A stretch of DNA of 64,000 nt from Silvimonas iriomotensis (lineage in GTDB: Bacteria; Pseudomonadota; Gammaproteobacteria; Burkholderiales; Chitinibacteraceae). Below the pieces are notes generated by a model. That model was not told the DNA's origin. It did no database searches and saw nothing but the letters and a program-made list of their open reading frames with translations. How positions within the stretch are numbered: position 1 is the stretch's first letter; every line of letters starts with the position of its first letter. The stretch is from contig NZ_BMLX01000002.1 of the NCBI RefSeq assembly GCF_014645535.1, positions 620,001-684,000 of the forward strand, in the 5' to 3' direction. Shown here one piece after another: positions 29,151 to 30,091 of this stretch. A program made the translations under genes and the position numbers.

Positions 29151-29430
29151 TTGTTAGCGCCTTTGGCGCGGGTTTTAAAAGCATTTGATACCGGCGGTGG
29201 CCGGAGCACCCTACTTTCTTTGCTTCGCCAAAGAAAGTAGGCAAAGAAAGGCGACCCCAGCCCGGCGGCCCTCCGGGCTGCCCTCAGTCGGTCGGGAGCC
29301 TGGGGTCTCCCTCCGCTCCTTCGGCGCTTGGCTTTAATGGGGGAGGCAAGTCAAAGGCAACGGCAACGGCAACGGCAACGGCAACGGCAACGGCAACGGC
29401 AACGGCAACGGCAACGGCAACGGCAACGGC
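29151..29430 (-). repeat. Composite repeat element 4 (module B)
   Basis: Reverse orientation. H3 (GCGCC-TTT-GGCGC), H2 (CCGGC-GGTG-GCCGG), H1 with a 13-bp stem CCTACTTTCTTTG / CAAAGAAAGTAGG (29210-29222 with 29229-29241), and module B. A perfect GGCAAC array of 12.5 copies follows (29356-29430). Confidence 0.85.
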
Positions 29431-29535
29431 GAAATCCAAACCAACTGCAACCCAAAACCAAAACCACAGCAATACCCATGACATTGGCAGTGGCAGTGGC
29501 AATGACAAATCCAGCACGCGCCCCACTGACTCGTC

Positions 29536-29555
29536 ATTCCGGCGAAGGCCGGAAT
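29536..29555. repeat. dRS3-like palindrome
   Basis: Perfect ATTCCGGC-GAAG-GCCGGAAT preceded by CGTC. Confidence 0.8.
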
Positions 29556-29629
29556 CCAGTCCGCAGCCCGACGGGCTGCTTTCGGTGACCTCGCGCTTAC
29601 TCCGCAGAGCCTGCATGCATCGCAGCTGG

Positions 29630-29662
29630 ATTCCGGCTAAGGGGGCCGCCGAGGTCCGGAAT
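29630..29662. repeat. dRS3-like palindrome with enlarged loop
   Basis: ATTCCGG / CCGGAAT arms separated by a 19-bp GGGGGCCGCC-containing loop. Almost identical to 41343-41375. Confidence 0.7.
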
Positions 29663-29705
29663 GACGAAGTGGAGAGGCGAGTCAATCATCACTGCGGACT
29701 GTGGC

Positions 29706-29775
29706 GTAGGGTGGATTCACGAAGCAATCCACCTTTGCGATGGTGGATTGTCGCTCCGCTCCGAATCCACCCTAC
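29706..29775. repeat. Nested inverted repeat (GTAGGGTGGATTC family)
   Basis: Outer arms GTAGGGTGGATTC / GAATCCACCCTAC are perfect over 13 bp. Inner arms CAATCCACC / GGTGGATTG are perfect over 9 bp. Partial relatives are at 13738 and 37554. Confidence 0.8.
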
Positions 29776-29803
29776 AAAACCTGCGTCCCGATAACCTGGT
29801 TTT

Positions 29804-30091
29804 AGTTGCCGTTGATTTTCGGAGTTGGGGTTGGGGTTGCTTTTGACGTATCTCCCCTTGACTGCGCCGAGCATCGCAGTGAAGTCCGGGGTTGCGGCGG
29901 AGGGGTGTTTGAGCGAAGCGAGTTCCCGTAGCCAGCCGGACTTCGCGAGAAGCACAGGGAACCCGCGTAGCGGGCGCCGTCGCAGGGGTCGCCTTTTCTT
30001 TGGTGCCTTTCTTTTGGCGACCCAAAAGAAAGGCACTTGCTGTCGGGCAACCCCCGACACCCAAAACACCCGCGCCGTCAGGCGCTAACAA
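29804..30091 (+). repeat. Composite repeat element 5 (module A)
   Basis: Short degenerate GTTGCC/GTTGGG array, module A with the long-range stem (one C-G pair changed to T-G), and H1 with a 15-bp stem GTGCCTTTCTTTTGG / CCAAAAGAAAGGCAC (30003-30017 with 30022-30036). H2 is of the TGTCGGG / CCCGACA form; H3 is GCGCC-GTCA-GGCGC. Confidence 0.85.

Follow-up and report, generated by a model that had tools for sequence, protein, structure and literature searches.

Copies of a hairpin-rich intergenic repeat recur in the genome of Silvimonas iriomotensis as facing ends of two types, A and B, and orthologous intergenic gaps are occupied by these copies in one species and not in another. In the window (the whole 64,000-nucleotide stretch that was analysed, G000:C2:620001-684000, from a genome of 4.59 Mb in 15 contigs), the 939 bp at positions 29152-30090 are probably a single non-coding intergenic composite, and the two features that the first-pass annotation described as separate elements, element 4 and element 5, are its arms. 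It further seems likely that the window and, in broad terms, its relatives can be accounted for by one element family in which structured arms come in pairs and the centre can change. Bacterial intergenic repeats are usually seen as passive clutter; this family-wide repeat has a defined unit and apparent internal recombination and, in one genus, borders accessory genes that vary from species to species.

Architecture and copies of the composite

The complete composite (29152..30090, plus strand) begins with TGTTAGCGCC, ends with GGCGCTAACA and consists of a B arm, a centre and an A arm. From B to A, the general layout is H1, H2, H3, B core, hexanucleotide array, dRS3, RS-like segment, inverted dRS3, GTAG motif (in 11 of 22 composites), hexanucleotide array, A core, H3, H2 and H1. 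In the window, the left arm (29152-29346; element 4, module B) contains, all on the plus strand, the end hairpin H1 (29153..29169; GTTAGCGCC TTT GGCGC, an exact end-motif site at C2:649153), the hairpin H2 (29191..29204; CCGGC GGTG GCCGG, which varies between copies with the pairing kept), the long hairpin H3 (29210..29241; CCTACTTTCTTTG...CAAAGAAAGTAGG) and the B-type core (29263..29346), the latter recognised by the nhmmer Bin model that gave 36 hits in 310 kb of the same genome. An array of 12 GGCAAC units follows (29356..29427, plus strand), and then a dRS3 or CGTC-1 type palindrome (29532..29559, plus), a 66-bp RS-like segment (29560..29625, plus), a second palindrome of the same type, inverted and with a longer middle (29626..29666, minus), and a GTAG-tagged inverted dimer (GTAGGGTGGATTC; 29706..29775, plus). 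The right arm (29854-30090; element 5, module A) lies on the minus strand and comprises the A-type core (29854..29992; nhmmer Ain model, 65 hits in the same 310 kb), H3 (30003..30036), H2 in its TGTCGGGCAACCCCCGACA variant (30041..30059) and the end hairpin H1 (30072..30089), where the sole terminator-like site of the region also lies, a number that shuffled sequences reach as well.

All the features named in the first-pass annotation proved to be present, namely, the arms, the two dRS3-like palindromes and the nested inverted dimer at exactly 29706-29775, and the lone modules that it placed near 13780 and 18760 are real as well, with nhmmer ends at 13772 and 18760; when the letters were read by eye, these lone ends showed the outer hairpins and lacked the long AAAGAAAG hairpin. 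Its separation of elements 4 and 5 into distinct types has to be abandoned: they are the two ends of one unit that recurs genome-wide in a fixed convergent order. The boundary of this unit is TGTTAGCGCC; the base ahead of the motif is a T in 92 of 96 ends, and there is little conservation further outside, where a AAACCTTGAACTGC-like stretch is common to 32 of 92 ends (expected, 0.26). None of the five ORFs translated from the window composite gave a Pfam match above the curated cut-off, and the composite thus has the terminal inverted repeats (TGTTAGCGCC/GGCGCTAACA) without coding capacity that characterise a MITE. The gene that follows on the right (30550-31764) encodes a protein with 99% identity to its counterpart in Silvimonas amylolytica and 98% to that in S. 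terrae.

The end motif, GTTAGCGCC-N2-4-GGCGC, has 97 exact sites in the 4.59 Mb (49 forward, 48 reverse), and its reversed form, used as a control, has none. A 1051-bp query produced 197 matches in the genome, three of which, aligned from query position 53 or 55 through 991 with 78-79% identity, represent whole composites elsewhere. Exact ends within 1.5 kb of each other form 16 inward-facing pairs, one outward-facing pair and seven pairs that point the same way; among BLAST-defined modules, 18 of the 18 neighbours within 1.5 kb are B plus A in the same convergent order, as counted over 34 of 40 B matches and 40 of 54 A matches, short partial ones being left out. The loci were merged into 61 intervals (310 kb, containing 96 of the 97 exact ends), and profile models built from these yielded 115 end hits in 77 clusters. 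Of the 25 convergent end pairs found in this way, 22 are A+B, one is A+A, none is B+B and two have one recognised core; the remaining 52 clusters are half elements and lone ends. The 22 AB composites measure 515-1063 bp, the short copies being without parts of the centre, and the centre does not exceed 644 bp in any of them.

The view implied by the first-pass annotation, that separate repeat families pile up independently in the same permissive gaps, has some observations in its favor: lone ends and half elements occur, dRS3 and GTAG copies are also present outside composites, and the repeat arrays with NIME in Neisseria are mosaics as well, at least in the text of the report available to us (PMC3898611). 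The mean divergence between copies is 13% for A arms, 12% for B arms and 33% for centres. Over the 22 composites, the distances among A arms show no significant correlation with those among B arms (Mantel r 0.12, p 0.12), and neither the GTAG dimer nor the RS orientation tracks arm similarity under strict labels, with an RS label for 11 of the 22. Linked descent of the arms, the GTAG dimer and the RS orientation is thus not significant, and the data do not establish that the composite is passed on in one piece. Against independent accumulation stand the fixed order and orientation of the arms (22 AB, one AA and no BB pairs, and 18 of 18 module neighbours) and the same convergent pairing in four other genomes, G004, G005, G014 and G015. 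We accordingly find this view improbable as an account of the element; for the arms, the fixed order speaks against it, but the dRS3 and GTAG parts may have accumulated in this way.

The centre shows signs of rearrangement. The dRS3 or CGTC-1 type motif occurs 96 times in the 310 kb (reversed control, 0); 13 neighbouring copies are inverted relative to each other and enclose 68-112 bp, and 10 further neighbours point the same way. The first copy in the window is a 6-8-6 palindrome with ATTCCG/CGGAAT instead of ATTCCC/GGGAAT, and the window thus presents, with variation, the form described for NIME, that is, inverted dRS3 copies around an RS of 50-150 bp. When the segment of one copy was aligned to all 22 composites, with the shuffled maximum as the threshold, the RS segment was found in the orientation of the window in five, inverted in 11 and not recognised in six. 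Because this segment is flanked by inverted dRS3 copies, recombination between them would be the simple reading of its inversion. The GTAGGGTGG sequence of the GTAG dimer, or its complement, is present in the centre of 11 of the 22 composites; a further GTAG-tagged palindrome (GTAGCCCGGATG...) lies in the same gaps in S. terrae (G002, L217-L218, C3 ~162.8-163.0 and 170.3-170.5 kb).

Folding, gene ends and occupancy of orthologous gaps

As one strand, the composite has a folding z score of -11.1, obtained with only 20 shuffles, and the left arm one of -3.1, with 200 shuffles. The five pairs of H1 are invariant in the 55 aligned ends, so that H1 is silent on structure. For H2, 31 cells are changed on both sides with pairing kept, compared to 14.2 in shuffles, and none of 500 shuffles reaches 31, although kinship among the copies can inflate this count; the number of H2 pairs changed on both sides (two) and of further pair types (three) is shuffle-like, being reached in 386 of the 500. 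This alignment comprises 55 of 60 candidate ends, five that resemble lone ends having been left out; selection was uneven in that candidates on the plus strand needed ACC in the H2 stretch and those on the minus strand did not, and eight ends with a shifted H2 were scored as unpaired at some pairs.

The elements show a preference for gene ends. By ORF-based calls, the 77 clusters lie in 46 tandem, 28 convergent and three divergent gaps, compared to 83, 25 and 39, respectively, among 147 control gaps without an end, so divergent gaps are avoided (3/77 vs 39/147, p 1e-5) and convergent ones enriched (28/77 vs 25/147, p 0.002), with different limits having been applied to the gene calls for clusters and for control gaps. 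By the same crude calls, 74 of the 77 clusters are downstream of at least one gene. The contrast is weaker among the 19 element-bearing gaps in unselected stretches (13 tandem, four convergent, two divergent). This position, together with the retained pairing of H2 and the strong folding as a DNA strand, would fit a functional RNA, namely, a bidirectional 3'-end element, either a terminator or an mRNA stabiliser, that is maintained by selection. Other observations argue against such a role: there is no excess of terminator-like sites (one, vs 2.8 in shuffles), Rfam gives no match up to E 1, four of six gaps are without the element in a sister species, and, for half elements between tandem genes, transcription reaches the inner end first in 15 and the outer end first in 13. 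On balance, selection for an RNA function appears to us quite unlikely.

The window is collinear with S. amylolytica (G001) and S. terrae (G002), and its six element-bearing gaps can be followed in both, a gap being called empty when neither the end nor the core models hit it, although other repeats may be present there. The full composite at 29.6 kb faces an empty gap in S. amylolytica and in another genome of the genus, G003, and a B arm with a facing end in S. terrae. At 13.5 kb, an A half and a lone end in the window correspond to an empty gap in S. amylolytica and a full composite in S. terrae; at 18.8 kb, a lone end and a B half correspond to an empty gap and to two ends with an A core, respectively; and at 35.0 kb, a B half corresponds to empty gaps in S. 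amylolytica and G003 and an A core in S. terrae. The B half at 21.1 kb is shared with S. amylolytica, the gap in S. terrae being empty, and the A half at 41.2 kb is common to all three species. At 18.8 kb, as read from the letters, the insertion separates the stop codon of one gene from the ribosome site of the next, which are joined in S. amylolytica. In sum, S. terrae carries the family in five of the six gaps, and in two of these the arm is of the other type; it has two further occupied gaps that are empty in both other species, and two more that could not be anchored. Both anchorable gaps of G003 hold no end or core.

The first-pass annotation proposed a shared amplification mechanism or insertion hot spots between operons, and named, as the finding that would speak for old vertical inheritance, orthologous gaps that are all occupied by diverged copies. 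The latter is not what was found, and the proposal is borne out in part, in that gaps are used recurrently and four of the six are empty in S. amylolytica. A four-taxon tree (6212 columns) places S. amylolytica and S. terrae together (131 sites, vs 93 and 84 for the alternatives), so the four gaps that are occupied in the window and S. terrae but not in S. amylolytica require losses or repeated gains. Two features of the same region can be recorded here. At 40099-41060, a hexanucleotide/12-bp array adjoins the A half at 41.07 kb, with ~0.7 kb that is without a counterpart in S. amylolytica; the A half itself, beside that array, is common to S. amylolytica and S. terrae. The gap at 37460-37595 measures 134-168 bp here; its counterpart reaches ~1.2 kb in S. 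amylolytica and, in S. terrae, 1.3 kb, and contains no end or core of the composite family in either.

The suggestion that RAYT proteins act on these repeats from elsewhere, as they do on REP sequences, is not supported by the genome search: the Y1 transposase domain (PF01797) has no match in G000, G001 or G002, all of which carry the arms, although it has two in G003, is present in 22 of the 41 genomes searched and in five of 14 control genomes. Recognition of the arms as hairpins by a Y1 transposase, in the manner of REPINs, would agree with the hairpin ends, the GTAG-tagged repeats inside and this occurrence of Y1 transposases in 22 of 41 genomes; with the domain missing from three carriers, this scheme is largely refuted at present and seems very improbable to us, although a RAYT may have been present in the past and then lost. 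Piv-type enzymes act at dRS3. Inversion at dRS3 driven by an IS110/Piv recombinase was rejected because PF01548 has no matches in G000, G001 or G002; it has two in G003, and four of 14 control genomes are positive. Across the 25 pairs, no clear target duplication was detected, either with k of 2-10 directly at the motif or with k of 4-10 in the 60 bp beyond it, the excess of shared 4-mers being marginal (22 vs 17.7, p 0.04). Two stretches between distant convergent arms were considered as parent elements and dismissed, as C1:426.6-429.4 kb contains two ORFs with no transposase match and C2:114-118.7 kb contains a radical SAM gene; in general, no transposase domain was found among the interior ORFs given to Pfam. 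We know of no parent transposon with these arms.

The absence of Y1 and IS110 from these genomes, the lack of a clear duplication and the lack of linked arm descent point to heavy reshuffling between copies. Presumably, copies spread as units with the help of an enzyme that was supplied in trans and is now absent or of a kind other than those examined; inversion between dRS3 copies would reshape the centre, recombination would exchange arms between copies, hexanucleotide arrays would change by slippage, and loss of one half would leave half elements. What such processes would leave behind is homologous sequence repeated at gene ends, by way of which DNA can be exchanged.

Arms and gene cargo in other genera

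A 981-bp query found matches in 25 of the 25 genomes of the family Chitinibacteraceae that were sampled (S. iriomotensis included) and in five of 16 from other families; outside the genus, many among the matches listed cover only H3 and the inner part of the core. The stretch at 29210-29300 of the window, with H3 and its AAAGAAAG hairpin, also matches plasmids of Caballeronia (two), Variovorax (one) and Chitinibacter (one), which suggests a wider distribution for this hairpin than for the arms.

Pairs of arms that face each other are also present in other genera of Chitinibacteraceae. In the congeners G005 and G015, all 26 pairs of arm neighbours separated by no more than 1.2 kb are convergent, and the seven outward-facing neighbours are further apart, i.e., lie between composites (62 of 75 matches counted, short ones left out). 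In 21 of these 26 pairs, a match to the full query in one arm is accompanied by a match to its outer part only in the other, so two arm types are again apparent. Within the same 1.2 kb, there are three convergent pairs and no others in G010, one convergent and two same-way in G020, and no convergent and two same-way in G011 (44 of 49 matches counted); facing arms were seen at one locus each in G020, G010 and G021. The pairing is thus mixed in G020 and less clear in G011.

These genomes also bear on the possibility that the composite is a large MITE, that is, what is left of a DDE transposon bounded by TG...CA, which is or was moved in trans by a transposase encoded elsewhere. The TGTTAGCGCC/GGCGCTAACA termini and the variation in occupancy between species are what would be expected of a MITE, and so is the near-uniform unit length in G005, where the convergent pairs span 445-629 bp and 11 of 16 spans fall within 567-574 bp (513-702 bp in G015). 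The same can be said of copy numbers, there being two matches in G023 compared to 36 and at least 37 in its congeners G005 and G015, respectively. Conversely, the 25 pairs show no clear target duplication, no transposase was seen between such arms among the ORFs given to Pfam, and the arms of G005 have no sharp end, as they grade outward into hexanucleotide arrays in 11 of 14 (left) and 10 of 14 (right) aligned copies (14 of the 16 fetched, two being left out). We therefore regard a MITE origin as possible but rather unlikely, and retain the interpretation as a family with paired arms and a changeable centre.

Two congeners of a sister genus, G004 and G014, add gene-bearing forms. Their neighbouring arm pairs, counted over 38 of 44 matches, are convergent in 15 cases, divergent in none and same-way in two; seven of the convergent pairs span up to 1.2 kb and eight span 1.6-9.3 kb. 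The eight long pairs constitute four orthologous sites, at all of which the flanks and the arms align and the interiors do not. At site 1, the interior is a PIN_8 gene in G004 and three Rhs ORFs in G014, where the last has a WHH domain; at site 2, a GGDEF gene and PDC-M15A plus PDC-M15B, respectively; at site 3, a 394-aa ORF of no known identity and a TonB_C-S41 ORF; and at site 4, GmrSD_N in two pieces with HEPN_RiboL-PSP and a retron type VI reverse transcriptase with an HTH. Comparison of interior with interior by blastn and tblastx found nothing at sites 1-3 and, at site 4, short matches only, the longer one inside the right arm. Some of the genes enclosed in this genus are anti-phage genes; PADLOC models were matched by three of the eight interiors, one of the four ORFs in the Rhs interior having been given to PADLOC. 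The single-arm orthologous places L282/L281 and L284/L280 show no interior exchange. Mean arm similarity in G004 and G014 is much the same throughout, at 0.886 between the left and right arms of one element (n=12), 0.894 between orthologous arms (n=8) and 0.879 between other arms of the same genome (n=178). In G014, a 574-aa reverse transcriptase matching Drt8 (L269 3084-4805; PADLOC 1.4e-147) begins ~0.2 kb outside a short composite.

A tentative interpretation, which we consider somewhat doubtful, is that convergent arm pairs serve as portable docking frames without an enzyme of their own, within which relatives would swap whole gene cassettes, defence systems included, through recombination in the arms; the gene-free Silvimonas composites, as part of this same tentative claim, would be such frames with mosaic repeats as their load. 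The boldest step of this interpretation is an active part of the arms in the exchange, and it draws on one genus. The place of the arms at the borders of such genes offers a way, at the level of sequence, to study the possible movement of defence genes at sites where neither a transposase nor an integrase was seen.

Relation to known repeat systems

We found no recognisable description of the composite in the literature searched, which consisted of open-licence papers, and the comparisons below extend as far as the text of the cited reports that was available. In NIME, 20-bp dRS3 inverted repeats (6-8-6) flank RS of 50-150 bp within intergenic repeat arrays (PMC3898611, PMC9778887). The composite shares with them the dRS3-RS-dRS3 unit, the gathering with other repeats and the bacterial order, the RS being likened by form, against the published description; unlike in NIME, this unit is only the middle of a larger element with long, hairpin-rich inverted arms, and the RS occurs in both orientations. 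NIME-like cores are thereby shown in environmental relatives of Neisseria. The dRS3 of Neisseriae is CGTC-1, and CGTC repeats have been reported without a dedicated transposase (PMC3733652). The inner palindromes of the composite carry the tags of the CGTC-1 and GTAG repeats described there, but the arms, H1-H2-H3, show neither tag by eye, and the genome is without a Y1 transposase.

Like BIME and REPIN, the composite has palindromic modules in opposite orientation and is extragenic (PMC2817692, PMC3116915), but its arms, with three hairpins plus a core, measure ~190-240 bp as opposed to palindromes of 20-40 bp (PMC3733652). In MIC, long inverted repeats enclose genes and there are no transposition enzymes (PMC6304161), and the gene-bearing arm pairs of the sister genus resemble them. 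Genes bounded by inverted repeats, with no transposase among the ORFs scanned (the small ones in part), were found in G004 and G014 only, and the window element, having a non-coding centre, is not a MIC; its arms differ from those of MIC in being hairpin-rich and in occurring also without genes, and no parent transposon with such arms was found among the ORFs given to Pfam. Identical to none of these kinds, the composite is closest to NIME for its centre, to the CGTC and GTAG repeats for its palindromes, to BIME and REPIN for the pairing of palindromes, and to MIC for its gene-bearing forms.
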